DNA of 42,500 bases from contig NC_087383.1 of NCBI RefSeq assembly GCF_963675165.1, forward strand, positions 6,609,639 through 6,652,138, read 5' to 3'. Position numbers and translations under genes: made by a program. This document shows positions 1,024-36,111 of the stretch, one piece after another; positions within the stretch are counted from its first letter, which is position 1, and each line of letters begins with the position of its first letter. The notes beneath the pieces were generated by a model that did no database searches, was not told the DNA's origin, and worked only from the letters and a program-made list of their open reading frames with translations. The DNA comes from Halichondria panicea. Taxonomy: Eukaryota; Porifera; Demospongiae; Suberitida; Halichondriidae.

Positions 1024-1146
1024 TATATCCTTGCTCTTTCTTCAAAAAAATATAAAATTTAGGCCCAAAAGCAATAAACATACTCATGACCTCTGACCTC
1101 AGTATTTCAGATAACAGAGGTCATGCCCATGTAACTATGTACTGAC

Positions 1147-1232: not shown

Positions 1233-1252
1233 CTGTGAGTCCGTGCTGTGAG

Positions 1253-1360
1253 GTGTGTGGGGGTGTGTGTGGAGTGGGTGGGGTGAAGTGTGTTGGTTGT
1301 GTGGAGTGGGTGTATTGTGTGGGGTGTGTGGGTGTAGTGTGTGGGGTGTGTGGAGGGGAC
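1253..1360. repeat. GT-rich simple-sequence tract
   Basis: Degenerate GTGTGGGGTG-type repeats lie directly upstream of the kinase-like exon as read on the minus strand. They give spurious His/Thr/Pro frames in several phases. Confidence 0.85.
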
Positions 1361-1379
1361 ACATGCATGCACACATGAA

Positions 1380-1870: not shown

Positions 1871-2660
1871 CAAGCTATCATTGGGAACTGTACAAAGAAG
1901 TGCCTCTTATGCACACACACAGAGAAAGCTAAAAGCCAAACAGAATTGAATTGTAACAGGTGCATAGTGATTAGGATCAAATTGACCTAATTTCATAAGG
2001 GACATTTCATAAAGGAATTGTAGCCTTGGGAGTGCCTAAACATTAGCATTGGGAACAGATAATAACACTACAAAAAGTGTCTGTTATGCACACACAGAAA
2101 GCCAAACAGAATTTAAATTGCAACAGGGAACAAAATAAATAATTTGTGGCCTCTGGGAATTCTAAATACATTATCACTGGGAATACATTGGGAACAAAAA
2201 AGCATAAAGAATTGGAGGGTGCCTACTACAGACATTACATTGCAAGTAAAAACAATTATCTCACAGAAGCCTAAAACTACAACCACAAATTGAAGTGACC
2301 TTTGGCATGCCTAAAACATGACCCTACAAAAAGGTTATAGTTGCACCATAATAACACATAACCAATGTCCTATGCCAGTGGCACAACACATGACAATAAT
2401 AGAGAGAATCTGTACAGACTTTCCCCAGGTTATCAACAATCATTGAGAATAATACAAAAGCATGGATTGCAGGCCTAATACATTGGCATTGGGAACAGAC
2501 AATGTAAAAATAATTATCTCACAGAAGCCAAAAAGTACAACCACAATTGAAGTGACCTTTGGAATGCCTAAAACATGACAATTATAACTTTACACAAGTA
2601 AGAGGTAATAATGAGTTGCACACCATTATAATAACACAATGTCCTATAGGCCAGTGGCAC
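1870..2660. repeat. Diverged tandem/dispersed duplications
   Basis: The block acaattatctcacagaagcc followed by acaaccacaa, gaagtgacctttgg and gcctaaaacatgac occurs at about 2250-2325 and again at about 2508-2582. A second block (cattgggaac, then ttatgcacacac and gccaaacagaatt) occurs at about 1880-1955 and 2047-2115. Words such as cattgggaac recur several more times. The region is therefore built from old, imperfect copies. No gene is supported. Confidence 0.6.
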
Positions 2661-2718
2661 AACACAGTACAGACAAATTATAATTGGTTACTACACAACA
2701 ATTGTAAATTTGCCTAAG

Positions 2719-2876
<158 letters not shown>

Positions 2877-2942
2877 GAAACCTGCCCTTGGACTCCCACA
2901 ATGACCATTCTCGAGAGGCCTTCATCCAATCTGTAGGCCCAG

Positions 2943-4357
2943 CTGTATCCATCTCAAGTTCTCCCTTACCAGCATTTCTTTACCACTGAAATAATGGATA
3001 ACATAGTAGCCGAGACAAATTGATACGCTAGGCAAATGATGACCCCACTACAACATGATAAATGGACCCCACTCACGACTGCTGAGCTAAAGGCTTACAT
3101 GGGATTCTGCATTTCATGGGGATCGTGAAACTCCCAACGATTGAAAATGATTGGAGGAGAGACGTGCAATTCCACTACTCACCAATTGCATCGAAGATCT
3201 CACGCAATCGCTTTAGGGACATCCGACGATACCTCCATTTCACGGACAACACCACTCTCCCGACTCCAGGCACCCCAGGTAGCGATCGTTTGGCCAAAGT
3301 ACGCCCCCTCTTCAATAAGATCAACGAGCGCTGTTCTGCTGCATACAACTTAGGCCGTGAAGTTGCAGTAGACGAGGCAATGATAAAGTTTCAGGGTAGA
3401 TCTGCACTGAAACAGTACCTCCCAAATAAACCTGTGAAGAGAGGAATCAAGGTTTGGGTCCTAGCAGACGGGTACTTCCACATGCTACAAGTGTATACAG
3501 GGAGAGAAGCCACACCAGAGAAGCAACTGGGAGCACGAGTTGTGAAAGACCTCACAGCCTCGTTGAAGCACATGCAAGCACCACCACGTCTATTTTGACA
3601 ACTATTTCACGTCTGTCAAACTGTTAGAAGACTTGGAGAAGGATGGCATTTATGCTTGTGGTACAGCTCGCGCTGACCGCAGAGGCTTCCCCAAGGCTCT
3701 CAAGCAGCCAAAGCTGACAGAAAGTAATAAGCATAATAAAAAATTATAATTATTTACCTTTTCAGGGGGGAATACATGACTCTCCAGAAAGAAAAAGGTG
3801 ACGGTCTCAGCGACAATAGGGTTGTCTGTGTGATCTCCACAGCCTCTGACGCCACTTCGGTCATCTCTGTACAACGTACAGTCAAGACAGGCGAAAAAAT
3901 CTCCGTCCCGTGCCCACAGAGCATCGAGGACTATAATCGCTTCATAGGGGGTGTCGACAGAGGGGATCAGCTCAGAGGGTACTACAGATGCCCTACAAAA
4001 TTCCATAAGTTTTATATGTACATTTACTTCTTCCTAAAGGATATTTGCATTACGAACAGCTACATATTATATCGACAGTATTCACCCACCAACGCACTGA
4101 AAACCCTCCTCTCATTTCGTCACGAGTTGGCCAAGAAGCTAATTGGCGACTACTGCTCCAAAAAGAGCAAGACACCCTTGAAATCGCTAGGAATAGCTCA
4201 CTTCCCTCTTCACCACCAGGATGTACGCAGAGGTCGTTGCCATCTGTGTTATCAGAAAAACAAAAGGAAGGACACAGCATGGTTTTGCCTACAGTGCGAG
4301 AAGTGGTTTTGCCACACTGGCAACCCCTGTTTTATGCTATGGCATAAGAACATGTAA
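2943..4357 (+). pseudogene. piggyBac-family transposase gene, broken
   Basis: A DDE transposase of the piggyBac type (DDE_Tnp_1_7 fold), which in intact form cuts and pastes its own element at TTAA sites. Three frames carry consecutive parts. Frame A (about 2943-3110) has IVAETN then YARQ, separated by an in-frame TGA at 3021-3023 where the family usually has Arg. Frame B (3116-3598) holds the first catalytic Asp in VDEAMIKFQGR (3371-3373). Frame C (about 3585-3748) holds the second in YFDNYFTS (3597-3599). From 3767 the third appears in GGVDRGDQL (3956-3958), followed by a C-terminal cysteine-rich zinc-binding region (CHLC, CLQC, WFCH, C...WH) ending at a stop at 4355-4357. Frame changes fall near 3110 and 3585. 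A possible 42-nt intron, 3724-3765 (gtaata...ttttcag), would still need one extra base in the G-run after it. All catalytic residues survive, so inactivation looks fairly recent. Terminal repeats of the element were not located. Confidence 0.9.
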
Positions 4358-4358
4358 C

Positions 4359-4686
4359 TAGTTGTATAAAGCGTCAACTCCTATGAGTTTCTATCCTGCC
4401 TGTTGAACATGAGTAGAAATACTTAGTACTGACTGTAACACGTAACCAGTGTACATTTACTACTTTACAAGCTATCTATTATGTAGAGTAAGCGTACTAG
4501 CAGTTTAATACACAGCCACAAAGCTTACCTATGAAGTGCTGTGGCCGTCCGTTCCAAACCAGGAGATCCCGACAGAGAATGCTAGGCAGTTGCCTAAAAG
4601 TTAGTTGCATCTTTCTTTGCACGAGGAGAATGCTGAACAAGATAAATAATTGAATATCTAACCGTGTAGACTACACTCTAAAAACA
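4359..4686. repeat. 328-bp sequence following the transposase stop, copy 1 of 2
   Basis: Starts two bases after the piggyBac-like stop codon and matches 7682-8009 with only two visible substitutions. It is probably the 3' untranslated or terminal region of the mobile element. The copy at 7.7 kb would then be a second, truncated or deleted copy. A weak third similarity (gctgtggcc, ccaggagatcc, gatagag) lies at about 8173-8226. Confidence 0.9.
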
Positions 4687-4689
4687 ACA

Positions 4690-6160
4690 AATATAATCCA
4701 CTACAAGCCTTCCCTTAATTGTCAGAAAAGAGCTGCATATAAAGCTTAATCCGAAACGATATAAAAGTTTAATTAAACTGCGTTGTCCTATAAATTATTA
4801 ATCAATAGAACTGTTTCAAAAATCGTTTTGCGCACAAGGAAATTTGGGATTTCCGTAGCAGCAATTTTTATCAATTATGAACTTACAAAGTGGTAAATAT
4901 AAAGTCCCCGTTCCGTTTACGTAGTACGTGCATAATATACACTGATACAGCGCAAATTAAGCGCTAAAAAGGACGCTCAAGATAAGAGCTTTTTTCTGTT
5001 GTTAAAATTACTTTGGTCACCCATGCAGCTATAGTTGTCATGACATTTTGCAGCTTGCATTATAGCTACATGTAAGTTAGCTATAGCAATTATGCTAAGA
5101 TCAAAATAGTGCGGTGAATGGTGCGTTATATTTCTTTGTTAGATCTATGTAGAACTATAGGCTTATAGCTAAGCAAAATTTAGCTGGATATTATGTTACT
5201 AGAGGATTGTCGATTTGTATTCAAAAACACAGCACACTGCATTTGTAAAGTGCAATGGTATATAGCAACGGTACAGTAAAATACGCTTTTAATACAGTAC
5301 TTATCAAAATGGAAACACTTTAAACGTACTACGCAAACGGAATGGGATATTGACCGCTGTATACGTATATAGACAGATAACTGATAACTGCTAATGCTCT
5401 CTCCAACACGTGTCACTTTCAACATCATCCTGCAATATGTTTTTTCACATCAATTCTTACAACAATAATTAATTATAGTACCATCAAAAAAGTACGACCA
5501 CCATTTTGAAAGAACTTTAGATGTGAGAGGGAATTAGGCGTATTTTTGCGAATGGCGTGGTTTCCCTCTGGGCAGTTGGCGTTTCACAACTATAATGTAT
5601 ATACACGTGAAAAGCAATAGATCTAGTATGTACAATAATTATAAATCAATATATTAATGAAACATAGCATCAAGTATGTACAGCATATAGCTAAGTAACT
5701 AGTCTAGCTACGATACTCGAGGTGACTAGGATTGTCTCTTTGTTTATTTTTTTTGCAAAATGTATACTTGCAACGTGCAACGATAAATTGCAACGCTTTT
5801 AATACAGTGTAAACGTACTGGCGTACTACATAAACGGAACCGCTTACTGCATCTATACAATAATAGTGCAACGTACGCTATGACAAGTACAGTCGAAAAC
5901 GGCAGTGGTTCTTGGTCAGACATGCATGCAATGGAACTAAGCTTTATGTGTTAACGAATAGCTATAGCGCTCCGGACATTCACCGGGACCAGAGTAGTCT
6001 CACAGTAAAGAAGCCAGAACTCAAGCGTGGCTGTATAGTGCGCATTTGATGTATCAAGCTTCAAAATGAAACTGTATTTAGCTAGCTTCAATGTATGTGT
6101 ACAAGGTTTAATTTATACTTCTTAGCTTTTACCCAACTAAGCTTTTTACCATTTGAAAAT
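4690..6160. other. Non-genic stretch with repeated CGTACTACGNAAACGGAA ends
   Basis: An inverted pair, gttccgtttacgtagtacg near 4909-4927 and cgtactacgcaaacggaat near 5325-5343, brackets about 435 bp that may be a decayed MITE. A second right-end copy (gtactacataaacggaac) lies near 5824-5841, again preceded by cttttaatacagt. No coding exon was recognised in 4690-6160. Confidence 0.4.
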
Positions 6161-6836: not shown

Positions 6837-7004
6837 TGTTCAGCATGTTGAGGGAAACTTACCTAGTTCCACAGTTTTGTCAAACAGCTCTCAAACCATG
6901 TCTAAACTCAACTTCTTTTCTTCTTTGCAAGAACAGCAAAAAAAATCTTTGTTGCTATGCAGCTGCAGCTGCACATCTGTTGTACTGCATGCCCTTATTT
7001 GGTA

Positions 7005-7200
7005 CTGAAAACAGCACACTGTGCTGATACCTGTTTCAGCACACCCCATTACATTTAGCACAGTCCATTTAGCACATTAATCGAACATCAAAATCACAAG
7101 CCATGAAAAAGCACACCAATACAACACGTAGGCTGTGCTATATGCCTACAAAACAGCACATGTAGTGTGCTGAATCACTGTTTAGCACACCACGGTGCTA
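7005..7200. repeat. TAGCACAC-rich stretch next to a MITE
   Basis: Carries many GTGCT/AGCAC words, including two 22-bp dyads with identical 12-base spacing: gtgct-N12-agcac at about 7020-7041 and about 7168-7189. The theme resumes after the MITE (tagcacacac near 7637; acagcacacc near 7660). The MITE therefore appears to have inserted into an older repeat. The style resembles the subterminal arrays of the CACTG elements further right. Confidence 0.5.
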
Positions 7201-16547: not shown

Positions 16548-19500
16548 TTAACATTCCTGTACAACAATGTCATCTCCACACATGACAGACAGTGACACCT
16601 CCTGTACAATAAGAATAGATACAATAGAATAATCACATATACCCAACACAAGACAATAATATATGCATGTGTCTGGTAAGCATTTACATCACTAACACTA
16701 TAGTCTTGATTCTATACTCACTTGAGTCAAGTGCTGACAGATATCATCAGCTATCTTGTCTTTTATCAGTCCCAGTAACAACTCCAGTAGAGCTTTGTAA
16801 GTTGCTGTGTAAGGATTGTGTCTTTTCCAGATAGTCAAGCATTCAGTCATGGCTACTTGAGTTCCATTCTTATGGTACAACTCATTCACATCGGCCTGTT
16901 CTGCAGGAGTTAGTCCCATTGCATTCGCATAGATTTTTGACCCGTCGAAATATTCGGCAAGGTAAGAATTATCAGAGTCCCCTATTTCACTATTGAGCTG
17001 CTCGTCAGTCAGACTGTATCTGCTCACTAGATCTTGAAGTGTGACTCGATTAGCAGCTGGTCCTATAATTATAGGGCCCATAATTATACTAATAATTATA
17101 GCAATCAAAATAATAATTATAAGCGTTTATGTCCTATCACTTCAGTCTCTACCTCACAATGACAATACAATTGCATGGCACATCAATGCAGCTATTTGGA
17201 AAAAGTCAGCTTTAGTATAATTATTGAGTGTGTGCTGATGCATAAAAGCTAGCTTTATAAGTCCTTATATCCCGTTGCTATGTTGTTGCCAAGTGCAATA
17301 TAAAGCATATTGCACTGCTGAAAGTCATATTGCACTGACCGCAAAGTCATATTGCACTGACCTCAAAACGCCCCTCTGGCAATTAGACAGACAATTAAAT
17401 TAAAATTAAATTAATATGCATGAGAAATAACAAGTATCAAAGTATGTCCAGCCATGCAGGAATGAATGTTCAGCACTGCTGGAGTTTCTTTTTGCAACCA
17501 TGCAGGTTTTAAAATTGTCCAAGATTCATTTTGTGGAAGATTCTGTGTTCCTAGATCGACCTAGTCCTCGACATCGTGATGCATGTCAATTCTGCTTCAC
17601 CGTAGCACTAGAAGTGGCTCTTTTTGCTGGGGGCATGAGCTGTTTTGCAGCAGTGTAGAAGCGAGCTTTCTTGGCTTGGTTATGAGGCCGAGCGTAGACC
17701 AGCAGCTAATACCATGTATTCACTGAGTAGTGGGGTGGGGCTGTTTCTTTGCAGCAGTAAGTGAGGCGGGACTGTTTTGCAGCACCAGAAGTGGGGTGGG
17801 GCTGTTTTGCAGATTTCAGTTGAAACTCCAACAATTTTGTGTCAAGCCATTCGTCGGTCATGCCAATCTTACACGCTGCAGATACTGGCGTCTAGAAGAG
17901 AGAAGAGATGGAGCTGTGTCTAGAGTTGTCTCTGTCTTTTTTTGTGCTGTTTATATTGTGTTACTAGGACAGTGTTATGTTGCTATATGCCCTCGGGATA
18001 TAAACTAGTTATAACACGTGCACTCGGGCTGCATGGCATATATTGCACTCAGCCCTCGGGGCTGGCGCCCTCGTGCTTCAGTGCAATATATTCCATACAT
18101 CCCTCGTGCCCGTGTTATAACTATAACTTAATGTTTGATAATTAATTTTGCTGCATGCACAGGCAGAATCCAGAAAATCACAGAGAAATAGTGGGTAATG
18201 ATCGACATTTTTGCATTAAGCTGAGAGAGTATGTAAAAATCAATGATTTTTGTTCAAAAGGATCGATATAATTATAAATAATTGTATGTATCGCAAAAGT
18301 CCAAGTCTAAAATTAATGGCTCCATCAGCGGAGCCTTGCAGCTCTACCATGCATGCAATGGTAGCTTTTTATAGTGCAGAGCTAATAACTACTAAGTATA
18401 GAGTAGCAAAACTACCTCTGTGGACAAGTTTTGCTATTATGCACTCTTCTGAAAAGGCTGCAATGGCATTCCATATAAATAAAGGCATAACTCGAGAACG
18501 AAGCATTATTTTTCACATCCACGAAAAAAACATGGCTATATAGAAACTCTTATCCTTGAACTTCATTGATCCTTGAGCAGCTGAAGCAGACACACACACA
18601 GACACACTACCGGTATATACCTTGAATGCCCACTGAGGCAGAAATAATAATAACCCCTAAACCAAATAATAATAACTCCTAAACCTATTATAAACGTGCA
18701 TTGTTAAAATTAATGTACCACAAGTAATTTTAGTGAGATCTCACCACGGCTTGAGGGTAATTGTCTGACTTCCGTCCTCTCCTCAATAGTTATCAACGTG
18801 GCTCCGTCTAATAAATGATATAGGAGGGGAATACAGTCATTCACGAGAATTTGACTATAATTATAACCATGCATGTAATATCAGGTAAACAATAACAGTA
18901 TAGCAAATCAGTGCATGGGTTGCCACTTTCAGACGCCAAAGGGGATAAGCGGCAAAATGGTAATTTAGTGCTCACCTATTGTGCTTGGACTGGGTGAGGA
19001 TTCAGACTCATTAGGTTGTTGCGGCAACATGTTTTCACAAAATAACGTAGGAGCAACACCAGCCAAAACCTAATCATGAGACAAAAGTATATTTCAACAT
19101 AACAAACTTATGAGTCTGGAAACATGATACAATTTTGGTACATAATGCACATAACTTTCAATTAGTTTCCATGACTCACTAGAGGGTTCTTCCCAGAGAA
19201 GACACTGAGTGGATCCAGAATCAGTCTCAATGCTCTGCAAGTGCCGTCACCACTGTCCCTCCACACCCTCAGGGCATGCTCTAGACTACCACTGATTCCA
19301 TGTGTGCTCTTAGCAGCCCTAGAAACAACTGAACAAACAATGTCTGATAGTTCACGATTCTTGCTCCAACAAGATGAAAGAGCTGAGAGCAGTCCATCAG
19401 AGACTTTCTCGTCATGTGCTGGGTCACCTTCGTTGCATAGAGCTTGTAGAATATTCTCACCGAGATCAGCGTACACCTCAGATTGGAGCAGCTCACTCAC

Positions 19501-21374
19501 TGGTGCAACTTGTGTGCTGGTTGTGGATTTAACGAATTCCTTCTGACAAGAAATGCTTTTAGCAACAGATTTCATACTAAACAATGGAGCACCAGCGATG
19601 TCAGTGGAAGGTAACAACCGTTCGTCCGTGTCTATGTTGGGGCAAAACTCACGAGCAGCTTCAACCACTTTGTTGATAACAGTGGATCGTACATCGAGTA
19701 CATCTAACGAGACCTTAGGTGCTTGTAGTTGAATAGTGACACTCTTCATCTCCATCACCTCAACACGGACTCTGATTCCATCCTCAGTGACCCAACACAC
19801 ACCAGTCTTCCAGACCGAGCATTGACCTTGCAAGGCAGGATTGTCAGTGTCCACCACTGGAGCAAGACCAAGCGACAGAGACAGTCGAAGGAGAAGAACG
19901 TGAAGAAATCGAGGGTTGAAAAAATGGTCATTGTGTGCACAGGCCAGGGACCAGTTGAAACTGTACTGGAAATTAATAGTGGTAGCCATTGGTTCGCTGG
20001 AAGCTACCAATCGGATCAGTGCTGGACAGAAGATGAAGCCTCCAGAGACGGACACAGCAGTTGCAGGAAGATGCTTGTCGATAAGACTGAGCACTATTTT
20101 GTCTTCAATGGGAACGGCTAGCTCGAGATGAAACAAGTATCCAATGAGCATGTCAATGTTGAAATTGGGGAAGTGTTTAGCGAGATTTGATTTTAGAACA
20201 ACCCCAGTACTTGTGGAAAGCTCACAATGCTGTGTGAAATCTTCGGGAGCAAAAATGGTGCCATTTACTTCAGCCAAGAGTTTCGATTTGTCAATAACGA
20301 TAAAGCTCTTTTCTGGAAAGGAAGCATTGCAAAGGAAAAGAATATGACCTTTGTCACTGAGTTGAACACAGATCTCAACAAGTCGTGGAATGCTGGTAGG
20401 CACGAAAGAAAGAACTTTTTCATCTTTTCTAGAAACTCGATCCTTCATTTTCCCTTGAACTTCTTCCAGGGTTACAGCAATCTCACCCGAGTACTTGTCA
20501 AGAAGGTGGACAAGAAACATATGAGCATTGAGGCTCACAGACAACCGCTCTCGAATGGAAGCACAGCTAGTTCCAACAATATGCCTAAAACTCATCATGC
20601 CATCAGAACTTGAAAAGCGACAATCCATTGAAACAAAACCAGCAAGATCAAACATTGGAAACTTTTGAATGGCTCGTACTATAATTTTCTTCTTTTGCTC
20701 CGCTTGTGTGCTTGTCACGAGATCAGCATGACTACCTACCACAATGAGTGGTGCTTTGCCCTCCATATTGGCACACTGGTTGGCAACAATTCCCAACCAA
20801 TAGGAGACGGAGGTTGCTGTGATGGTGTCGTTATTCTGGAGACCGATTACCATGACAAAAACGGGTGGACACGTATCGACTGTATTCTTGATAATGGCAG
20901 CATGGCTGCTGTAGTAGACCTCTTGACCAGCAAAGTCATAGACCAACACATCTCCAAAGACACGACTCTTGAATAATTGAGGGATGATGCCGGCTGTTTT
21001 CTTGCTCACTCCATCGACTTCTTTAGGAGAGACGAAGATGTTGACTAGAGATGTGAATGCATTTGGCTCGTGTTCCATTGCTTTAATGAGAGTGCTCTTT
21101 CCTTCTCCACCATGACCGATAACAAGTATCTTCACTGGGTTTTTCAGGGGATCCTTTGAAAACACGTTACCAAGAGCTTTGCGATGATTGGTATAGACAT
21201 CTTCGGCAGTAGCTCCATGTTGCAACAAGAGTAGAATGATTTCCTTGTTCTTTGCAAGAAAGAGTGGTGTGTGTCCATCGTCATCTTTGATATTGGGATC
21301 ACAGCCAACAACGTCATTCAGAAGATATTCCACGATTTCGGTAACCCCATACTGGCAGGCAAGTAGAAGAACAT
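16548..21374 (-). CDS. ANK-Roc-COR-Death protein (ROCO family, DAPK-like tail), 3' part of gene
   Basis: Five exons splice by eye with GT-AG introns and matching phases: 19180-21374 (enters in phase 1), 18976-19069, 18745-18807, 16722-17062, 16548-16601 (TAA at 16548-16550). Exon 1 starts inside an ankyrin repeat (VLLLACQYGVTEIVEYLL; DDDGHTPLFLA). A Roc GTPase follows with P-loop GHGGEGKS, switch-II DFAGQE and a G4-like SHAD, then a COR-like region. The end of this exon (LEHALRVWRDSGDGTCRALR) is helical and Death-like. The 341-nt exon is a Death domain (LAEYFDGSKIYANAMGLTPA; CLTIWKRHNPYTATYKALLE). The last exon ends VSLSVMCGDDIVVQEC. ROCO proteins use Roc-COR as a GTP-regulated dimeric switch, and Death domains recruit partners in apoptosis or immune signalling. 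The order ANK-Roc-COR-Death equals that of DAPK1 without its kinase. The 5' end is missing here; distant exons may supply it. Confidence 0.88.
16722..17062 (-). CDS. Death-domain exon of the ROCO gene
   Basis: The acceptor is taattatag|GA and the donor CAA|gtgagt. It joins upstream exon 18745-18807 in phase 1 (SSR-G-PAANRV) and downstream exon 16548-16601 in phase 0. The peptide runs VTLQDLVSRYSLTDEQL to ICQHLTQ and has the six-helix Death-domain pattern, with the conserved Trp in LTIWKRHNPYTATY. It is separated from exon 18745-18807 by a 1.7-kb intron with repeat insertions, much longer than the two introns before it. Confidence 0.88.
17170..18007. other. Intron sequence with short direct repeats
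   Basis: Lies inside the intron between 17062 and 18745. catattgcactgac-type words repeat three times at about 17306-17362. ggggtggggctgttttgcag-type words repeat at about 17627-17815. The plus-strand frame 17730-18008 runs through these repeats and is not supported as a gene. Confidence 0.5.
18008..18121. repeat. Hairpin repeat with GTTATAACACGTGCACTCGGG ends
   Basis: The left arm (gttataacacgtgcactcgg... to atattgcact) pairs imperfectly with the right arm (agtgcaatatattcc... to cgtgttataac), about 42 bp each around a GC-rich loop. A partial copy lies near 29128-29152. Confidence 0.75.
18178..18655 (-). repeat. Interspersed repeat family R, copy 1
   Basis: Shares in order, with 22296-22735 (same orientation) and 28227-28700 (opposite): a tgggtaatgatcg block, caagtctaaaattaatggct, tggacaagttttgct, actcttctgaaaaggctgca, ataactcgagaacga, cttcattgatccttgagcag and an end near actaccggtatataccttg. 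It lies in an intron of the ROCO gene. The open frame 18250-18543 is repeat-derived. Confidence 0.8.
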
Positions 21375-25255: not shown

Positions 25256-26797
25256 CACTGTTAAAAATGGGGTGTTACGTAGCACACTAATTTTAGTAGG
25301 TAAATGTCAGTGGTGTGTTAATGAACACACTCGTGTGTTTGTCGTGCTCAACAACACACTTAGAGTGTAATAGAACACACTTGGGTGACACAACAGAATG
25401 GTGTGTTACTGAACACTCTGACATCCATACAGTGGTGTAAAGTAGCACACGATATATAAGATATTAAGAAGGTCTTTTTACTTTTCAGATACCAAAATTA
25501 ATATTTATGTTCCACTTAGTACAGTTAGATCACCAAGAGTGCTAAGTATGTGCAAGTGAAATAAGAGTTGAAATGCTGCAGTCCCTGCAAATGCGGGAAA
25601 CAACTTGCTATCACTCTCAAAGGAAGCTTTATACTTTGCAAACCCAGAAATCCAGGTCCTAAAAGTATGGCTATAGTATATAGAAGCCTGCAATGCATGT
25701 AGAATCTCTACATGCATGATATACTAGAGCTAAGTGGCTAAGTCCAGACCTTCTGTGTGCGCATGCGCATTGAGGCTAGAAGCACATGTAGTGTGCTTTA
25801 CTTAAAATCAACAAAAGAAGAACTGGAGAAGAACTCAATTTAGCTCTGTACTAACTGCACTGAGTATTTAGCTTTCCTGAAGAATATACACTACTGCAGC
25901 ACTTCATGGAGCTTCCAAAGGCCATTCATGTGGTAAGCTGGTGAAATACTATGTGTGATATGATCATATAAATAATATATAGCCTTTCTCACAACTCAGC
26001 CCAGAACTTGACCTCATTCTTGACTTGAGCACTGTTTGAGTATAGAAGTGACTATTCTCTGGGACATACTAACTGCTATAAATGTGCAGAAAGTATCCAG
26101 GTACGTGGAGTAATAGATATGCTTACCAGACATAATTGTATTTATTATTTAGGACTGACAAGATGAGATACAAGATGACTTCAATCAAAATGTGCTACTG
26201 CTGCTGTGCGCTCTTTCGTCAAAAAGGAAACATGTGATGTGCTGTCATTAACAGTAATGTGTTATGTAATAATCCGTATAACATTTAAATAGTCGTTCGT
26301 TGTATAATTATAGTCGTTCGTTGTATATATGTTTTTGATTTGTGTTAAATTAATGACTTGTACATTTCGTTGAAATTGCAACAGCATCAAGCTAGAAGTA
26401 ATCTTACCGTCCTGAAAATAACCAAGTTACGAGGTGCACATGCACTGTATGCATGTGCTAGACAACCATTATTAGTGTGCTTGAAGGCACTGTATGCATG
26501 TGCTAGACAACACATTTACCATTATTAGTGTGCTTGAAGGCACTGTATGCATGTGCTAGACAACACATTTACCATTATTAGTGTGCTTGAAGGCACTGTA
26601 TGCATGTGCTAGACAACACATTTACCATTATTAGTGTGCTTAAAGGCACCTATGCATGTGCTAGATAACACACTTGCCAATGTGTTCAGCAACACACAAC
26701 AGCTTATGTGTTACAAAACACCTTTAGGGGTGTCAAATTTAAAGTGTCATACCAACATGCCAAAAGTGTGTTCCAGAACACATCATTTTTAACAGTG
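25256..26797. mobile_element. Non-autonomous CACTG-type DNA transposon, element 1
   Basis: Ends CACTGTTAAAAAT and ATTTTTAACAGTG. Subterminal arrays on both sides consist of gtgtt-N4-aacac dyads (for example gtgttaatgaacac, gtgttactgaacac, gtgttcagcaacac, gtgttccagaacac). The interior has a 53-bp tandem repeat (about 26433-26670), the GCGCATGCGC word near 25758 and no transposase. CACTN ends plus subterminal repeats suggest the CMC (CACTA/EnSpm-like) group. The open frame 25505-25717 has no recognisable product. Confidence 0.75.
26433..26670. repeat. 53-bp tandem repeat inside element 1
   Basis: Units begin ggcactgtatgcatgtgcta, followed by gacaacacatttacc and attattagtgtgcttgaa. Three to four near-identical copies; the first lacks the acacatttacc part. 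Confidence 0.9.
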
Positions 26798-26829
26798 CAG
26801 TTAAGAAAAAGTATAAGGGCTTGGTTTAG

Positions 26830-27077
26830 GAAATGGCGTGATCCACAAGGATATTTATGAACGTGGGAGATATGTAGCCCACAATCGGGACGTAAGGTAT
26901 TCTACCACGCATTCAATAATAATAAGACTTGTACTGAGATACTGCATGCCAACAAGCTACTGCATGCAAAGTCAGGGAACTAGCGTGGCCAGCTCTGGTG
27001 ACAGTATAGCTACCTGCTAGATGATAATGATGACTAAGCTATTAGTTTAGATCTAAGACACAAGAATATAATTATTC
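26830..27077. other. Short non-genic stretch
   Basis: Contains a 60-codon frame (26838-27020) without recognisable features. Nothing else was seen. Confidence 0.3.
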
Positions 27078-27198
27078 TACAGGGTTTTGCATAATCTTTG
27101 CAATATCCACAAAAAAGCGTTTTGCGTTGAGCGTTCCTTATATGGTTATCTGTGGTCAACCATAAGTTGTAGATCTAAGTGCATGGCACTACTACTAC

Positions 27199-27524
27199 CA
27201 AGAGTTTATGATAGAGGAGAGAGTATCGAACGTAGGCATACACTGTACATCAGATGTATGCGGAGAGTAACGTGACTTCCTGTATCTGTCACAAGCTTGG
27301 AATTTGCACACTGACCAATCCAGTGTGGGTGATGTAATCTATCAAGAAAATAGATTACATTACCCACACTTGGATGAGTTGATAGATTACATCACCCACG
27401 CTTGGATTGGTCAGTGTGCAAATTCCAAGCTTGTGACAGATACAGGAAGTCACGTTACTCTCCGCATACATCTGATGTACAGTATGCCTACGTTCGATAC
27501 TCTCTCCTCTATCATAAACTCTTG
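27199..27524. repeat. Long hairpin: 147/146-bp inverted repeat with 33-bp loop
   Basis: The left arm 27199-27345 and right arm 27379-27524 are reverse complements apart from two or three small differences (a 2-bp indel near gcatacactgtac; one extra base near cca[a]gcgtggg). The 33-bp loop holds another inverted copy of the innermost 20 bp (tagattacattacccacact). Weaker complementarity extends outward: tacagggttttgca near 27080 with tgcaaaaccctgta near 27801-27814, and gagcgttccttata near 27129 with tataaggaacgctc near 27765. RNA read through it in either direction would fold into a long stem. Confidence 0.93.
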
Positions 27525-27822
27525 CTACTACTGTATTCTACAACAGTTGATGGATCAACTTGAAGATTCTCAGCAACACTTTGATAAGATAGTCCAAGCA
27601 GCTCTGTCTGATGCACTATTCTCTCCATCTTATATCCCAAATAATGCCTTGATATTTTTTCACAAGAAAAAAGCCATTTTGATTTTGACTGTTGCTTCCC
27701 AATCAGACTTGGCATTTCACCACAATATGTATATGACACCACAATGTGTAAACATTAGATATCCTATAAGGAACGCTCTACACCCTCTATTTCAAAGATT
27801 CTGCAAAACCCTGTATATATAA
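27304..27822 (+). pseudogene. 172-codon open frame over the hairpin right arm
   Basis: The first third runs through the hairpin loop and right arm. The rest includes HFDKIVQAALSDALFSPSYI and AILILTVASQSDLAFHHN and ends at TAA (27820-27822). The composition of the distal part looks protein-like, so the locus may be a captured or inverted gene fragment, but no family was recognised. The ATG is inside the hairpin left arm and is probably not a real start. Confidence 0.25.
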
Positions 27823-28226
27823 ACACACAATAATATTATAGACTCTAGCACTGCATACCCACGCTCATTTTCACCCTTCTACCGTCCTTCTACCCTCACA
27901 CGACTTCCCAATATAATTATACATGCTCTCCTTTTTGCTAACTCTATACCTCTATAAATGATTCCTCCAATTAATACTGTATTTTATTTTATTGAACAGT
28001 TTTAATTTTATCTTACCGTAATTATATTCCTCCATTCTTTCCGTGTTTTATTGAACAATTACAGCTAGTATAGAATGTTTTGTGAGCATCAAACATAATT
28101 CTATGTGAACTTTGCGAGGGTTGATCAATTCGTAATAATAAAATCGCAAAATATACTAGTAAATACACACGATCCTTACCAGAACGCAATAGTTAGATCG
28201 CAAAGGGTCAAATTTTCTGCTGCTTG

Positions 28227-28700
28227 AGCTTATTATGCCTCGGTGCGCATGTGCAAGCGAGGTATACGGTAGTGTATTTGTGTGTGTGTGTGTGTGTGTG
28301 TGTATAGATTGATACAGCTGCTCAAGGATGAATCAAGTGCAAGTAAGAGTTTCTATAATTATAGGCTTCTAGTCATGGATTTTAATTCGTGGATTTGCAA
28401 AATAATGCTTCGTTCTCGAGCCAGTTATGCCTAGTTTTGCTTGGAATGCCATTGCAGCCTTTTCAGAAGAGTGAGTAGCGAAACTTTTCCATGGAGTGTT
28501 GCTACTCTACTTAGTAGTTACTTAGCTCTGCACTAGAACGCTAGCTATTGTAGCTGCAACAGTGAGAAGAGAGCTGCAAGGCTCTACTGATGCAGCTATT
28601 AACCTTGGCTTGAACTTTTGGCATCGATCGTTTTTAACAACAATCATGGCCGATTATTACCCACTCTTTGAGTTTCCCTGTGATTCTGGATTCTGCATGC
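28227..28700 (+). repeat. Interspersed repeat family R, copy 3
   Basis: Begins with the palindromic gcctcggtgcgcatgtgcaa then gcgaggtatacggtagtgta and a (TG)n run (28281-28304). Blocks such as gctcaaggatgaatcaagtg, ttcgttctcgag, tgccattgcagccttttcag and atggagtgttgctactct follow. It is opposite in orientation to copies 1 and 2. The frame 28562-28858 is repeat-derived. Confidence 0.85.
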
Positions 28701-28859
28701 CTGCATGCAGCAAATTCAATGCAAGATTGTTCATCAAATTTATGTGTGTAAAAACGCTATTAGTAGGAATGTTATGTAGCTTTGGCACCTCTACCGAGGC
28801 ATCAGCACCCTCGGTGCTTTCATTCGCAAAGGTTTTTCACCAGCAAAATATTCTATAGA

Positions 28860-30205
28860 TTGAACGATTTAGATAAAGAACAGAAAAGGAGAGCCTGTGT
28901 AGGCTACTTCGACAGTATACTGCACAAAGCGTACCTTGACGCAGGATATTAATAATACCATGTGAAAGAGCCGCTCAATGTGCATGTGCTGGTACCTACA
29001 ACGTGCACACACAACGTGCAAACAATTATCACTATATACCGCTACCGTCATAATTTAAAATTTAAAGCTTAAATAATTTTTTAGCTCATTTTGGAGATAT
29101 AACTTGCAATTGCATATAATTATCCCTTGTGCCCATGTTATAACTATAACATAATAATATAATTATGCTAGAAGTATGCACTGGCTAGATCGACCATAAT
29201 AGACACTGGGTTAGGCCTCCATATAAATTATACTCTTGCAACACCAGGGCTTCATAGAGGGAGGGGCGCTCCCCCCCTGGCAATTGTATTGAAATATGGG
29301 CCATAACGCACTGTGTTACGGCCTGTTACACACCAACCAAACAAAGAGTGTTTTATAACAACAATAATGAGTTCTCTACGAAGCTACTTTAATTAAACTG
29401 CTATTCTTCTATATATAATACTCTTTCTGTTCCATACATCCACAATTTCTTCTTCGAAGTCACTATATCTGTATAAGTACAGAGGGCGATTCAGCGACCT
29501 TCATTTAGTGAGAAAGGCTTGTGTCGCTCAGGCTATGGCTTTTATCTATAGTGCCATTCAACCTAGGCAATTGGATTTCTGCATTTTTTATGACATTCCA
29601 CAATACTTAATAACTCTTAAGAATGAATAAAGATGCGATGTACGACAGTCTCTAAACACAACAATTTCGCAGATCCCCCAAGATACGGATAATCGCCGAG
29701 CCTCCCATTTTTGAAATGTTGATTTTCTCCCCCCTGTCAATTTTTTTCTGTATGAAGGCCTGAACAATGCTCTTCAAAGTACATCTATACACATGCAGTA
29801 AACATGCATGGCTGTTATTTTATCATAATTATAATGGGTGTTTATTCCAGTCCTGTCTTCTTTTCTCTGCTTCTTGACATTCCTCTTAGGCATTTTTTCA
29901 CATTTTCGAAACGTATAATACTTCTGTACTGAAGAAAGAAAGGGAATCGAACTAAAAAACTAATTTTGCTCTGTGAAACATTGTGAACGTATGATTGGCA
30001 GGAAAAGCATGAAAAGCGTAGAAACAAGAAATTCGTCGAGTGCAACTCCAATCCGTTACAACGTCATAAATATTGGCTGAGTCCAAGGTCTCTGGTTTTG
30101 AGATCCGAAGGCCTGAGGCTGTAGCATCCCAAGCATATTATAGCAAGGGTGTTATACTAAGGGCATATAACTGATTTAGAATAGTGCTAAGCATTAAGCA
30201 AGCTA
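28860..30205. other. Non-genic stretch with repeat relics
   Basis: Includes a relic of the hairpin family of 18008 (cccttgtgcccatgttataa near 29126) and a diverged cccccctgtcaattttttt-type block near 29730 resembling the 8524 MITE interior. No exon or RNA gene was recognised. Confidence 0.4.
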
Positions 30206-32619
30206 CATTGTAAAAACAAACGTGTTACCGTAACACACGTGTAGCGTGTCACATGTGTGCTAAATTGCTCTACGTATGTCATATCAGCACATTAGTAAGT
30301 ACATGAGTGCTATTTTAGCCCACTGGTACCACTTTAACCCATGTGTATGTGTGTTACACATGTGCTAATTGACCCAACGTGTGTTATATAAGCATAGTAG
30401 TAAACTACATGTGTGCTATTTCAGCACTGGTATTACAGCAATAGAATGTGGTATATTACGGTTTATAATCAAGTGTAGTGATAATTGTAGTGATATTTGA
30501 GCCATTTCTGAGAGTGAGTAGCATCACTAACTTGATTAGTAAATGATTATGGCATGTGAGCACTGATCTAAGTCAACATAGGATCATATCTAATTATAGA
30601 TATCTTGCTGACAGGTGGTACAGTCTTTATCCTTCATAAAAGAGCAAGAGAAGACCATTGAGTTCTCATTTATAAAGTATTTTGTTTGTTGGCTGTTTTA
30701 AATCTTTTTTTAGCTTTTCTATATAAAGCCCAGTGCAGAAGTTGCTCCGCGCATGCGCAGTTTCTAGTTGCTATAGCTCCTTCGCAGCTGGATTCTAGAA
30801 CAAAAGCAGAAGAGTCAAAAGCAGTCTAAAGGATACCACCAAGGACCAAGAGTTGTTTAAAAGCTGAAAGAGCTGAAAGAGCTGAAAGAGCTGAAAGAGG
30901 ATGGTGTCAAAGCAAGTGGTGAGTTTCTCCAGACAGTTGTTCTGGCTAGCTGTACACAACAGTACAAAAATAATAATACCTATATTTATACTTCGCAGCT
31001 GCAGCTTGTAGCCTATACTACTAAGATACTACTAGGAGACTACACTATAGAGTGTCTAAAATAAGGAGGGACCAGGAGTTATTTAAAAGCTGAAAGAGGA
31101 TTGTTTCATGACCAGACTCGACTGGAGTAAAGCAAGTGTTTTTCTAGGTGAGTTTCTCCAGGCAGTTGTTCTGGCTATAGCTGTTGACTGAAAATGATAA
31201 TACCTACCTGTTTGTATTAATGGCAGGCATTGACGGAAAAAGGCTATGGTATGACTTTGACGAGCTGTATATAGTTCCAACCCAGTGGACAGGCTTCAGC
31301 ACCTTGTTCATGTTCACACCCAACTGTACTTCGGCACTCAACTTGATATGGTAAATCATTCTATTTGTACTATAAAATTAGCAACCCATTCCATAGCAGT
31401 GCATATATCCGTTCCACGTGGCTATAATAAAATTAATTGTACAGCTCCAATGGTAGAACTATATTATACTTGCCAGCATTCCCTTTTGAATACGTTTGCT
31501 TAGCTGATTAGTTAGCATGTGTGTGTGAGCGACCATAACCAACCAACAAGCTCTAATGTATGCTGCTGCTGCTGATACACATTGGGTACAGATATATAAT
31601 AGATAGATCACAATTAGTCTTGGCTCTAACAGTAATATTCGAGGCAACCAGGTCACTGTAGCGTTGTTAGCTGCACCCTATTCTAAGAACTATAAACACT
31701 CTTTTAGAATATTCTAACAATTGTATAGCCTCGATTGCATGCCGCGCGTTGTAATTCTAACCTAAGTGCCAGAAAATATGTACCGTGTGAGGTGCAAAAT
31801 TTTGTGTTTTTCGAGGCCAAGTAAAAACTGCACCCACTGGTATTTCATTCTTGGTATGTGGTTTCCTGTCATTGAAACATTACAACTGCGAGCATCTATT
31901 CTGAGGGCTCTAGAGCCAAATAGCACTCGCGAAATGTTCTCGCTATACATGTGCGGTACTCGGTGCTCAAATTGAGCAAAGCAAAAATTGGGACTTGCCC
32001 CTTTATTGTAGGTAGTAGGGAGACACTGTGTGTAATTATCGTGTGCCTTTTATTTAAACAAAAGGTGGTGCGTATGTTTTGATAGCCCATAATTATGACA
32101 TAAACAACAATTGGAGTGGCATAGGCATCACATCAATATACGTATGGTGCATGGTCTTCATTTGTCTTCATTTCGATCCTTTGTAGGCATGGCTCCATCC
32201 TGAAATTTCATCACCGAAGACGATTGCCAAGAAGGCCGTACCTGCCTCTGTTGTAGCTTCTAACACTTTATAACGAAGAAGCAGACAATGGTACTATTAA
32301 TTTGCTGCAACAATACTCTGTACTCATGCAGGACATACTTTATGTTCCTGTACATTTTCAATCACTTTTTCTGCTGTTTCATCGAGTGTACGTATAATTT
32401 AATTGCACCTCCATTTATCTTTTCACAGTCACATGCCAACAACGTCACTATTAATAATTTATTGCATGCTACATACGTGCTGGTTTAACACAAAAATCAA
32501 TGACACGGGTGCTGTTTTAACATTGATATCAAGTAACACGTATGTATAGTGTGCTATTTTAGGAGACATTCGAACGACACGCTACCACGGGTTAAAATAA
32601 CACGTTTGTTTTTACAGTG
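30206..32619. mobile_element. Non-autonomous CACTG-type DNA transposon, element 2
   Basis: Ends CATTGTAAAAACAAACGTG (left, one mismatch from CACTG) and CACGTTTGTTTTTACAGTG (right), with TA flanks on both sides. Subterminal dyads have half-sites gtgyt/arcac at five-base spacing (gtgttaccgtaacac, gtgctatttcagcac, gtgctggtttaacac). The interior has a TATAAA (about 30722), a GCGCATGCGC word (about 30754), a 9-bp tandem gctgaaaga x4 (about 30864-30899) and an internal duplication (about 30840-30960 with 31060-31180). No transposase was recognised, and short frames (31285-31503 and others) lack motifs. Confidence 0.75.
30720..30770 (+). promoter_or_regulatory. TATA-like box plus NRF1-type palindrome in element 2
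   Basis: tatataaag lies about 30 bp upstream of ccgcgcatgcgcag. GCGCATGCGC is the core recognised by animal NRF1-type factors. Together they could be a small internal promoter, but there is no transcript evidence. Confidence 0.25.
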
Positions 32620-33240
32620 TAGGCTATAATTATTAACACATTTAAAGAAGACTCTGAAACCAAGAGTTTCTACAAGCCTCCTCAAGCAACGTTAAAGCTT
32701 TGCTCTGGCTAGTCTACATAAAAAAACTCACATTGAAGGCATGCAGTTTCGTTTTTTTTCTCTTCAGGGGAGGCCAGTGAAGGAGGCTATAACGTATCCT
32801 CGAGAAAATACGCCCAGCAGGAAGTCTAGGCTTATTAGAGTCCTAACTGGGCGTTTAATCGCGAACGGCGAGTTTTCATTCGAATATACGCCCACCCGCG
32901 GCCTCAAATCGAGGTTTACACTTCGCTCTATAACAAATCTTATTGTATTTTAATTTTAATACATAGTATGAACATTTTATTGACAACAATGTTATAAACT
33001 AATGCATGAATAATAATTATGATTAAAGCATGACAAGAGAATGAACATGAAGAAGTGAACTCTGACTCTATTCAATGCTTGTCGATGTCAGATGTAGCAG
33101 AAACTTCCCAAAGGATATGGTAGGACATATACTCCTATACAGAGTATATAGCTATCAGGTACTTCGTTTTAAAAAACCAAGGCAAGGTAACTTGCAAAAT
33201 TAGCCTGCATGTGTGATAACTTTCTTGGACTTTGTGTTTT
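32620..33240. other. Non-genic stretch
   Basis: A block near 32766-32900 (aggccagtgaaggaggctat, then tacgcccagca and gggcgtttaatcgcgaacgg) resembles parts of the CCAGGCC hairpin family. No exon was recognised. Confidence 0.4.
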
Positions 33241-33241
33241 C

Positions 33242-33245
<4 letters not shown>

Positions 33246-33281
<36 letters not shown>
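33246..33281. repeat. (CA)n microsatellite
   Basis: About 17 perfect CA units, read directly. Confidence 0.95.
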
Positions 33282-33286
<5 letters not shown>

Positions 33287-33296
33287 ATCAGCGTAT

Positions 33297-33820
33297 ATAC
33301 CTCGCTGTGCAAGCACACAGAGGCATCATAACTCAGTACAATGAATACTACGCTATAATTATATGCCTCAGGTGTGGATACGCAGCGAGGTATACAGTAG
33401 TGTGTTTGAGCGTGTGTCTGTGTAGAGTGATATATACAACTGCTCAATAAGTGTATAAGAATAAGAGGCTTCTAGACAGACTAAGTCATATTCAGTGGAT
33501 TTACAAAAATTAATAATGCTTCGACTAGTTTTGCTTAGTAATACATTGAAGGCTATGAATGATCTACGCCGTTCTTCTGTTCTGCTTTTCTCTGATTTGT
33601 CATGCCTAAAATTCACTGAATTTTATTGCAGACTGCAGACTCTAGCGTAGCAAACTTCGTTGAGTATAATTACATCTTCTTATTATATAGCTCTGCATTA
33701 GAACGCTATAGCGTTCTATATAGCTGCAAGAGTCATTATTGAATTTGCTGAGTGACATCAAACTTTCAGCATCCTTTTTAGCAACAATTAATCATTTCTC
33801 AACTATTTTTTCACAGCATG
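33297..33820 (+). repeat. Interspersed repeat family R, copy 4
   Basis: Has the tatacctcgctgtgcaagc/ cagcgaggtatacagtagtg ends, then ttcttagg-type blocks, aataatgcttcg and the ctctgcattagaacgctata block shared with other copies. It is followed immediately by copy 5. Confidence 0.7.
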
Positions 33821-33825
33821 TGTAT

Positions 33826-34190
33826 AATTATGCCTCGAGGCGTAGCCGCACGAGGGATACGGTAAAGCTGACTGTGTGTGTGTCTGTTCCAGCTGCAACT
33901 GCTCAACGGTTACTTGTAATTCAACAAAAACAATAGGCTTCTAGTCACGTTCTCATGGATTTTGATTCGTGGATTAGCAAACATTCTCGAGTTATGGCTA
34001 GTTTGACTCACATTGAAGGCTGTTGCAGTCTCTTCAGGAATCTTTCATAGCATCATCTGTTTGCACAAACTTTCTATTCGAGTTAGCATTGCACTAAAGC
34101 GCTAGCTTTTTGTTAGCTATACAAGAGTAAGAAAGAGCTGCTAAAGAAGCTAGCTATTTTAGTGATCATTATGGAACTTGCAGACACACC
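33826..34190 (+). repeat. Interspersed repeat family R, copy 5
   Basis: Starts attatgcctcgaggcgtagc, then cgagggatacggtaaagctg. It continues with ggcttctagtcacg, tttgattcgtggatt and gcactaaagcgctagc as in the other copies. Head-to-tail with copy 4. Confidence 0.7.
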
Positions 34191-34572
34191 CCTTCTTCCT
34201 GGATGTAATGTGCACGCTCAATACCACGTGTAAGAGAATCCATTTTGAACGACAGATCCTGGCAGAATCAATTTCTTTTTTGTTGAGGTCCTGGTAAGCC
34301 ACAAACCAACCTTTTCTGATAACTCTTTTTAGACTGCTTGTTATAGATAATAATTATTATTACTTTCTGTGATTGATTTCTGTCTTTCACAGACTACTGA
34401 CTATGCCTTTGACAAAGGTTTTCTCCCATTGTTTGGCTGCAGGCAATTTAAGACGATCACTATGCACTTTCTTGTGAAACAATCAAAACACATTGCAAAT
34501 TACTTATCTCTTCTATAACACTCTAGTAATACTTTTGAGCGAAAGCAAAAACATGGCGAGAGGCATTAGCAA

Positions 34573-34925
34573 GTGCACGCTTGCAACACTTGTTGTAACT
34601 GTATACATGTGTGTATAATAGGCTGCTAGTACAATATGGCTTCATTGGCGTTGGCGCTGCATTATCACCCGTGGTGTTCAGCACATGCACATAATTATAG
34701 AATGGGCAATACCAGCGAACAAAAATTCATCCAATGTGGGGCTCAAGCCCATGATCCTCAGATTAAGAGTCTGATGCTCTACCGACTGAACTTGTCTTAG
34801 TAGCAGATCCAGGAAAAAGAAAAGGGGGATTTCAAATTCACGAGCGCGCAGTACAAACATTTTTGGGAGTTACGCCCACTTCCGGTCACACGTTGTGCAG
34901 TAAGACTATAGGGAAATCCCATGCA
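34573..34925. repeat. Segmental duplication, copy A part 1 (SINE-like)
   Basis: From gtgcacgcttgcaacacttg to gggaaatcccatgca it matches 39439-39776 almost base for base, apart from small indels. Contains the tRNA-Lys-like sequence on the minus strand. The rest of copy A resumes at 36193 after element 3. Confidence 0.9.
34725..34799 (-). pseudogene. tRNA-Lys(CUU)-derived sequence, SINE head or pseudogene
   Basis: The minus strand reads gttcagtcggtagagcatca, then the anticodon arm gactcttaatctgag with CTT anticodon, then a T-arm gggcttgagcccc and cattggatgaa. D-, anticodon and T-arms match animal tRNA-Lys. The 5' acceptor strand (aagacaa) cannot pair with the 3' one (ttggatga), and the A-box is altered (aagttcagtcgg). 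It is therefore a tRNA-derived repeat head or a dead tRNA, not a working gene. Confidence 0.75.
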
Positions 34926-34940
34926 TTCTCAGCCAGGGTA

Positions 34941-36111
34941 CACTGTAAAAACTAGTGGGTCATTGTAACATACTAGTGGGTCATTTAAACTCATGAGCAG
35001 TGGGTCACACACGGGTCATATCCACAAAAGTGGGTTAAATAGTGATCCAATGGATGGTTATGTCGATTTTGACCCACTTTAAACGAAATAACCCGTATGT
35101 TAACTGAAGATGGGTAAGTTAAACCCAGTATACAAGAGTCATATTAACCTTCTCAGTGAGTTCATAATTATTACTCAGTATTGTGAGTCTAAATTACCCA
35201 CCCTAAAATAATTCCCCAGTCTATAAATTATCTATAATTATTTATAATCATGCATTTAGAGGCACTTATACAAACATGTCAGATGCACAAAGAAGAGTTG
35301 AAGACACTTTTTTTAAGAGGTAAGATACAGAATTTACTAGAACAGTATGCGGAGCACTACTTAACAACTACACTACTCTACACAGATAGACCTTTACTAC
35401 GGTACTGAATGCTAAGGAAACCAACCAAAGACAGGTTGAGTGCTGCTGAGATAAAAACTTTTAAAGGAAGACTCGGCAACCCTCGACCTCATCGTACTCT
35501 AAAAACCAGGTGATCCTATGCTCATGAATTGATTCAAAGATGTTAAATGTTATTTTTGTAGGGGGTTGACAGAAGAGAGCAATAATAAGTGACTAGATCT
35601 GAAAGTGAGTATATTAAATTAAAAGTGATTTACCCTCAAAAAGCTATTGTTTTATTGTATAGAAACCTTCTGGAGACATCCTCTGGATTGCTTGCAGTTA
35701 CGAAGTAAGTATGCAAAGTGCTATAGTTGTTGTAAAAATAACTGCTAATTCCACATCTCTAGGAGGAATGTCCCGGTTTGCTGGGCGTAGGAGAGAATTC
35801 CAAGGAGAACAATTACTTGAACAATTGCTGGTGACATTCCAACGTTGTATAATTGATTTACTATGTGCACTAAATGCTAATGCTGATTGTGTGCTGTTGA
35901 TTATGTATTAACAAATTTTCAAAGGTCAAAACAATCATACCTATGGGTAATTATGACTCACTTTATTGTTACTTTTAACCCAATCAATATGGTAACCCAT
36001 TGGTTAATTTAACACATTGGCAAAACAACCCATGAGTAGTGTGGGTCATTTGGTGAGACATTCAAATGACCCGCAACCGCGAGTCACTTTAACCCATTAG
36101 TTTTTACAGTG
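34941..36111. mobile_element. Non-autonomous CACTG-type DNA transposon, element 3
   Basis: Ends CACTGTAAAAACTAGTGGGT and ACCCATTAGTTTTTACAGTG, flanked by TA on both sides (34939-34940, 36112-36113). Subterminal dyads are gggty-N5-raycc-like (gggtcattgtaacat, gggtaagttaaaccc, gagtcactttaaccc). The duplicate locus at 39776/39777 lacks this element. No transposase was recognised; the frame 35711-35911 has no motif. Confidence 0.8.

Follow-up and report, generated by a model that had tools for sequence, protein, structure and literature searches.

The window analysed here, a stretch of 42,500 nucleotides of the sponge Halichondria panicea (contig NC_087383.1, positions 6,609,639 to 6,652,138), carries three transposable elements, called elements 1, 2 and 3, whose coordinates and terminal features are given in the table below. 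As the initial annotation had described, all three have CAYTGT(T)AAAAA tips and two of them are bordered by TA on both sides; indeed, the 2-bp target duplications are CA, TA and TA for elements 1, 2 and 3 respectively. Ends of the CACTGT(T)AAAAA form are present in both orientations, hence these are inverted terminal repeats starting with CACT(A/G), as expected for the CMC/EnSpm (CACTA) group, and one of the ends of element 2 is of the CATTG type. A search of the genome (131 Mb in 39 contigs) gave copy numbers that are lower bounds: at least nine other full-length copies of element 1 (86-95% identity, among 55 matching places), at least four other near-full copies of element 2 (92-99%) and at least two other full copies of element 3 (98-99%) together with partial copies and one longer copy. 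The ends of element 3 are also common, at 84-85% identity, to a 5.95-kb element at another locus, L073.

Genome-wide, exact CACTGTAAAAA occurs 349 + 335 times compared with 117 + 107 for the reversed-pattern control. A 2-bp target duplication was observed in 21 of the 23 elements for which both ends were collected (14 TA, 6 TG and 1 CA, with none in E11 and L021), a count in which L009 and L010, and perhaps also L020, L087 and L088, are duplicated copies of one insertion each. The TG and CA duplications rule out Tc1/mariner elements, which use a TA target only. The CACTGTAAAAA places flanked by 'tcga' (L001, identical to L027; L004, identical to L028; L005, L007, L075, L076, L078 and L092) seemingly lie inside another repeat and were rejected as termini. 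Several families of miniature inverted-repeat transposable elements (MITEs; L012-L019, L021-L023 and L025), which are 117-141 bp long and hairpin-like, also display CACTGTAAAAA-type ends and mostly TA flanks. In addition, two nearby arrays on contig C8 (301753-302121 and 305011-305482; G000) contain repeated matches to the terminal 45 bp of element 2 with a 54-bp period, as if tips had been amplified on their own.

Next to the ends lie interrupted palindromes, or dyads, written here as a half-site followed by the number N of spacer bases. They were counted with family half-sites, allowing at most one mismatch summed over both arms, and compared with 400 dinucleotide-preserving shuffles of the scored ends (200 + 130 bp for element 1, 250 + 250 bp for element 2 and 250 + 200 bp for element 3); the half-sites of the three elements were taken from the initial annotation, hence this test is not blind. 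Element 1, for which at least six GTGTT-N4-AACAC copies had been claimed, has eight dyads at N4 (shuffled mean 0.22, with 0 of 400 shuffles attaining that number). N3 and N5 gave none, and N6 gave six, at least five of which overlap N4 sites. The four GTGCT-N4-AACAC sites of its 53-bp tandem repeat fall outside the scored stretch. Element 2 shows the GTGYT-N5-ARCAC dyads attributed to it seven times, with none at N4 or N6 and two at N7 (shuffled mean 0.22, 0 of 400). In element 3, 14 GGGTY half-sites are found against 2.3 expected, together with just three N5 dyads, one at N7 and one at N11 (shuffled mean for N5 0.08, 0 of 400), and half-site enrichment exceeds dyad enrichment. The proposal of a GGGTY-N5-RAYCC site held for the half-site and much less for the dyad, and one of the examples given, gggtcattgtaacat, is a poor dyad.

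Four further end sets were scored along with those of elements 1, 2 and 3, namely L009, L011, L026 and L073. L009 displays nine GTGAY-N1 dyads and also five at N4, and L011 six GGTGT-N7 dyads and also three at N9 and two at N4, the half-site having been picked by eye in both cases. Perfect half-sites exceed all 400 shuffles in all seven end sets, with half-sites that came from the initial annotation or were chosen by eye. When perfect 5/5 pairing was required and no half-site was supplied (300 shuffles), element 1 remained significant with all spacers considered together (2 of 300 shuffles). Under the same conditions element 2 reached 0.007 at N5 alone but 0.14 over all spacers, which is not significant, and element 3 had no N5 dyad. 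Overall, the initial annotation was largely borne out, with ends and flanks as it describes them and with few dyads in element 3.

The spacing was followed across the genome with the pattern CACTGTAAAAA-N5-GKGTY-N{1,12}-RACMC, which gave 55 rows while the reversed control gave 0. Eight of these rows, at N11, re-read ends that also appear with N5, leaving 47 ends. The spacer is N5 in 44 of the 47 and N1, N6 and N9 in one each, a count in which the search pattern itself pins the position of the left half-site and in which the ends are not independent because many are copies of few families. The lone N6 end lies, by position, in an element-2 copy (C7:6703238, 92%). Spacer letters vary among sites that share one spacing. 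It had been suggested that each subfamily has co-evolved its own dimer-binding site and spacing; half-site and spacer do differ by family, and in the material examined dyads are enriched over shuffles and spacing is not free.

A register relative to the tip, absent from the initial annotation, is added here. In each of the seven end sets at least one end has its outermost dyad centred 23.5-24 bp from the terminal C. This dyad spans positions 17-30 in element 1, 17-31 in element 2 and L026, 19-29 in L009 and 16-32 in L011, and it is present at right ends only in element 3 and L073; the start of the left half-site varies (16, 17 or 19) while the dyad centre stays. The prediction was fixed before 48 fresh ends were retrieved. 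These ends come from 100 listed CACTGTAAAAA places, of which 44 were already collected and 8 were skipped (MITE pairs 118 bp apart), and four 'tcga'-flanked places among the 48 stayed in the test. Ungapped clustering sorted the 48 ends into 32 clusters, of which 24 differed from the 22 training ends, and 63 centres in half steps from 17 to 48 were scanned (planned range 16 to 50). In the 24 fresh clusters 24.0 was the top centre of the 63, with a mean arm run of 2.25 (next 1.42), and the three-centre interval 23.5-24.5 had a mean of 2.83, a value attained by 0 of 300 single-base shuffles (mean 1.63). Given that indel variants within one family can look separate, the test was rerun with gapped clustering and 500 shuffles: centre 24.0 was again on top both at 0.75 (17 fresh clusters, 2.24 vs 1.65) and at 0.70 (14 fresh clusters, 2.50 vs 1.64), with 0 of 500 shuffles reaching the interval mean in either case. 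Genome-wide, GTG at 19-21 with CAC at 27-29, which is centred at 24, was found at 59 ends, many of them copies of few families, and these arms centred at 28, the single alternative centre tried, were found at 0 ends. Across families, the first dyad tends to keep its centre at about 24 bp from the tip, irrespective of half-site and spacer.

Signs of constraint were observed between related ends. Over 120 bp the right ends of elements 2 and 3 can be aligned with no gap. All six half-sites of element 2 in this stretch show a T-to-G change in element 3 (A-to-C when read on the opposite strand) at the same half-site base, compared with 4 of 60 other A/T positions showing that change; this comparison was chosen after the alignment was seen and concerns one pair. 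L121 and L122, which are 86% copies of element 1, keep all four dyads of the first 130 bp at N4, and L123, a 72% sister, keeps three of these four at N4, the remaining one having lost a half-site. Between element 1 and L123 identity is 36/40 in the arms, 11/16 in the spacers and 36/61 elsewhere, and none of the four indel columns falls inside a dyad.

Table. Positions, in the window, of the three CACTG-type elements and of their terminal repeats.
Feature	Position	Strand	Details
Element 1	25256..26797	+	1542 bp; ends CACTGTTAAAAA; CA flank each side
Element 1, left-end N4 dyads	25272-25285, 25315-25328, 25344-25357, 25365-25378, 25403-25416	+	at most one mismatch
Element 1, right-end 53-bp tandem repeat	26465..26680	+	GTGCT-N4-AACAC four times, starts 26500, 26553, 26606, 26658
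Element 1, right-end GTGTT-N4-AACAC dyads	26682-26695, 26708-26721, 26768-26781	-	at most one mismatch
Element 2	30206..32619	+	2414 bp; ends CATTGTAAAAA and CACTGTAAAAA; flanks TA/TA
Element 2, left-end N5 dyads	30222-30236, 30307-30321, 30381-30395, 30413-30427	+	at most one mismatch
Element 2, right-end N5 dyads	32477-32491, 32509-32523, 32589-32603	-	at most one mismatch
Element 3	34941..36111	+	1171 bp; ends CACTGTAAAAA; flanks TA/TA
Element 3, left-end GGGTY half-site array	34957..35126	+	N5 dyads at 34978-34992 and 35112-35126
Element 3, right-end first dyad	36081..36095	-	GGGTT-N5-GACTC, one mismatch, centred at +24

Genes were found in longer relatives of these elements. The 5.95-kb element at L073 (positions 78-6027, TA on both sides, element-3 ends) has exon-like open stretches on both strands, and L074 is a second, better preserved copy of its minus-strand gene. 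The first exon of this predicted transposase gene encodes two C2H2 fingers over the Pfam cut-off, and single exons matched nothing else over the cut-offs. A hand-joined reading of the L074 core matched PF13960 (DUF4218) with 29.4 bits (cut-off 27), and Plavaka with an E value of 0.007, below cut-off. We take DUF4218 to be a CACTA transposase domain and the core motifs to be EnSpm-like; on these sequence features the gene would be CMC-like. The second gene of L073, on the plus strand, is related to a sequence in L026 that adjoins another CACTG end. Its exon readings matched no Pfam DNA-binding domain, and a likeness of the second protein to SAM-domain-3-like proteins found no support in Pfam, so that this protein is given no name here. 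The CACTA-type identity proposed initially agrees with the 2-bp duplications and with the gene content of this long element-3 copy, a second gene next to one that would encode a CMC-like transposase.

At E up to 1, the transposase core matches 41 places in the whole genome. For the second gene, represented by its C-terminal exon, 32 such places were found, many of them weak and several lying beside transposase matches. Two 10-kb elements on contig C7 (3994790-4005144 and 6194764-6204789), whose ends have GTG/CAC at 24, contain the transposase core (E 3.1e-9 and 9.5e-9, 29% identity) and weak second-gene matches (E 0.012 and 0.013, 41% identity). The two genes run in the same direction in these elements and are divergent in L073. 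The element at C12:5054189-5058845, also with GTG/CAC at 24, gave a weak second-gene match only (E 0.016). Transposase-core matches are also seen in open frames of 636-643 amino acids at C1:3042491, C5:2586045, C8:526674, C11:2502968, C11:2510770 and C1:2194648, five of them with identical scores, a group that is probably a recently spread transposase family; for the C1:3042491 copy no CACTGTAAAAA lies within 30 kb among the matches listed. A 4981-bp CACTG element with TG/TG flanks adjoins an open frame with a Transposase_21 match at L009 (679-5659) and L010 (621-5601). These copies are located about 40 kb apart on contig C1 and are 99.98% identical with matching flanks, hence the region is probably duplicated.

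Taken together, the fairly probable reading is a group of animal-type CMC/EnSpm elements that encode the protein docking on their dyads, with the first dyad at a set place and with families that diverge together with that protein. Elements 1-3 would be non-autonomous members of different families of this group, which has CACTGTAAAAA ends and 2-bp target duplications. Longer relatives would carry two genes, one of which encodes a CMC-like transposase; in the element-3 family the first exon of this gene contains two C2H2 fingers. The dyads would be putative binding sites of one element-encoded protein, bound as a dimer or as paired monomers. With the outermost site fixed about 24 bp from the tip, the bound protein could place its catalytic domain on the tip, and further inner sites may add binding strength. 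Families would have diverged in half-site and arm spacing together with the protein, so that each would tend to mobilise its own copies, as far as any copy is active at present. Many families in one genome share nearly one tip, which raises the genuine question of how each recognises its own copies. A fixed register combined with a changeable half-site and spacer is a concrete, testable answer to it, and elements 2 and 3, with half-sites that changed in parallel, form a pair on which the co-evolution of protein and site can be tested. More speculatively, and we would put this forward as a doubtful extension, the end could be modular: the +24 docking point would accept any half-site and spacing, and these two would form an address that keeps the many families with nearly one tip from cross-mobilisation. 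A pair of C2H2 fingers fused to the transposase would read this address, in which case the specificity of a transposase could be predicted from finger and end sequence alone.

The difference of CACTA subterminal repeats from family to family is already published, and what is new is the fixed register plus the fixed spacers; no fixed dyad register with family-specific spacers in CACTA elements was found in the literature titles and abstract openings searched, which covered few subscription journals. For plant CACTA elements, the available portion of PMC2613891 proposes that subterminal repeats diverged between subfamilies, probably in parallel with the binding protein, and reports a separate protein, TNPA, that binds the subterminal repeats of maize Spm, a duplication of 3 bp in Tgmt and, in En-1, a direct repeat motif of 12 bp. 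As far as that portion describes them, En/Spm, Tam1 and Tgm (from maize, snapdragon and soybean) share with the present elements CACTA-type tips and element-specific subterminal repeats, with a transposase and a DNA-binding protein there; unlike them, the elements described here duplicate 2 bp of the target, their dyads are inverted and spaced, and the first dyad lies near +24 from one family to the next. Animal CACTA elements (SmTRC1, the TRC relatives and Spongebob) have 2-bp target duplications according to the available parts of PMC1636069 and PMC4298943, as do the elements here. Their tips start with CCC and the present ones with CAC, a comparison that sets our elements against those partial published descriptions and is not an alignment. 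The word 'subterminal' does not occur in PMC1636069. Arabidopsis VANDAL elements, in the excerpted text of PMC5735166, carry a family-specific short motif in tandem repeats that is bound by a co-evolving element-encoded protein, VANC, and the VANC21 motifs stand in a single orientation in non-coding regions with an anti-silencing role. A family-specific short motif is found here too; unlike those described in that excerpt for VANDAL/VANC21, the motifs here are paired as inverted dyads, and their distance from the transposon tip is set.

Several observations weigh against docking of an element-encoded protein at a fixed place. In the ungapped test the three-centre intervals at 24.5 (3.17) and 23.5 (2.88) outscore the one at 24.0 (2.83), hence the register is sharp to about one base only, and single linkage at 0.65 leaves two fresh clusters, in which 24 is not favoured. 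The genome-wide comparison of centres covers one alternative only, 28. The left ends of element 3 (site 34957-34971) and of L073 have no dyad within one mismatch at +24, and among the 31 ends displayed (22 training ends and 9 picked from the 48 fresh ones) no good +24 dyad is seen in L012R, L016L, L020L, L024b, L103 and L106. Dyads are few in element 3 (3) and L073 (1), and between these two the arms are not better kept (26/30, compared with 7/15 in spacers and 118/125 at other positions, with 18 indel columns outside the dyads). Shared descent could be a partial cause of the register.

On the protein side, the L073 transposase core carries a stop, hence this long copy is no evidence of present activity. 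The finger exon was located by genome search at two places only, both element-3-like, hence fingers in the other families, and a change of fingers together with half-sites, are conjectural. Furthermore, PF02992 (Transposase_21) is unmatched by the element-3-family transposase, both in single exons and in the joined core, while 26 other genomic places match it. Nine of these 26 were inspected as possible autonomous copies, over about 5-10 kb on each side and with at most two mismatches to CACTGTAAAAA, and none showed a convincing CACTG-type end pair of its own; one of the inspected loci adjoins a CACTG element, that of L009.

A variant of the element-encoded reading, in which the second encoded protein and not the zinc-finger transposase binds the dyads, is a real possibility that we rate somewhat below an even chance. 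It follows the maize Spm precedent of TNPA (available portion of PMC2613891), and the second gene adjoins the transposase gene in L073, with several of its exon matches lying beside transposase matches; no Pfam DNA-binding domain was found in the scanned exons, while the transposase exon has two C2H2 fingers. It seems unlikely that the +24 dyad was inherited from one ancestral end, is unconstrained today and has merely let its half-sites drift. The CACTGTAAAAA tip is common to the ends, being the search criterion, GTG is often at 17-19 or 19-21, and the lack of better kept arms between element 3 and L073 would be expected from such descent. However, the half-site start shifts between 16, 17 and 19 under a constant centre, the 72% sister of element 1 has retained the arms better than the spacers and the remaining positions, and the half-sites of elements 2 and 3 changed in parallel.

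Binding by a host transcription or silencing factor borrowed by the elements, for example a nuclear-receptor-like protein, appears improbable. Short spaced dyads are typical of dimeric transcription factors, and the GGGTC half-sites of element 3 fit this explanation, GGGTCA resembling what we take to be a nuclear receptor half-site. However, a host factor would predict one site and no register to the tip, whereas half-site and spacer vary by family (GTGTT-N4, GTGYT-N5, GGGTY-N5, GTGAY-N1, GGTGT-N7) at a constant tip distance; a single shared host factor is less likely because the half-sites differ while the register stays. It is very hard to believe that the palindromes have no binding function and arose as a side effect of GTGT/CACA-rich sequence or of slippage duplicating the termini: the 53-bp tandem repeat of element 1 and the tandem element-2 tips at C8:301753-305482 show that ends duplicate, but the exact spacing compared with dinucleotide shuffles, the 44 of 47 ends at N5, the 59 vs 0 ends at centres 24 and 28 and the differing spacer letters at one spacing all speak against it.

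Other features were observed in the window. At 7021-7188 a block of GTGCT/AGCAC dyads, at N12 twice (7021 and 7167) as annotated initially and at N15 once (7135), has no CAYTGT(T)AAAAA end, and the adjoining 6837-7003 is 76% like the interior of the L009 element. Between elements 1 and 2 there is a long foldback (27193-27530), whose arms measure 81 nt with 100% complementarity and 49 nt with 96%. The minus strand at 19162-21333 contains an open frame of 723 amino acids, whose matches to Roc/Ras, ankyrin and COR-B are weak and stay under the Pfam cut-offs. Finally, two open frames on the plus strand at 3116-4357, in different frames, match DDE_Tnp_1_7 and presumably represent a broken piggyBac-like transposase gene.

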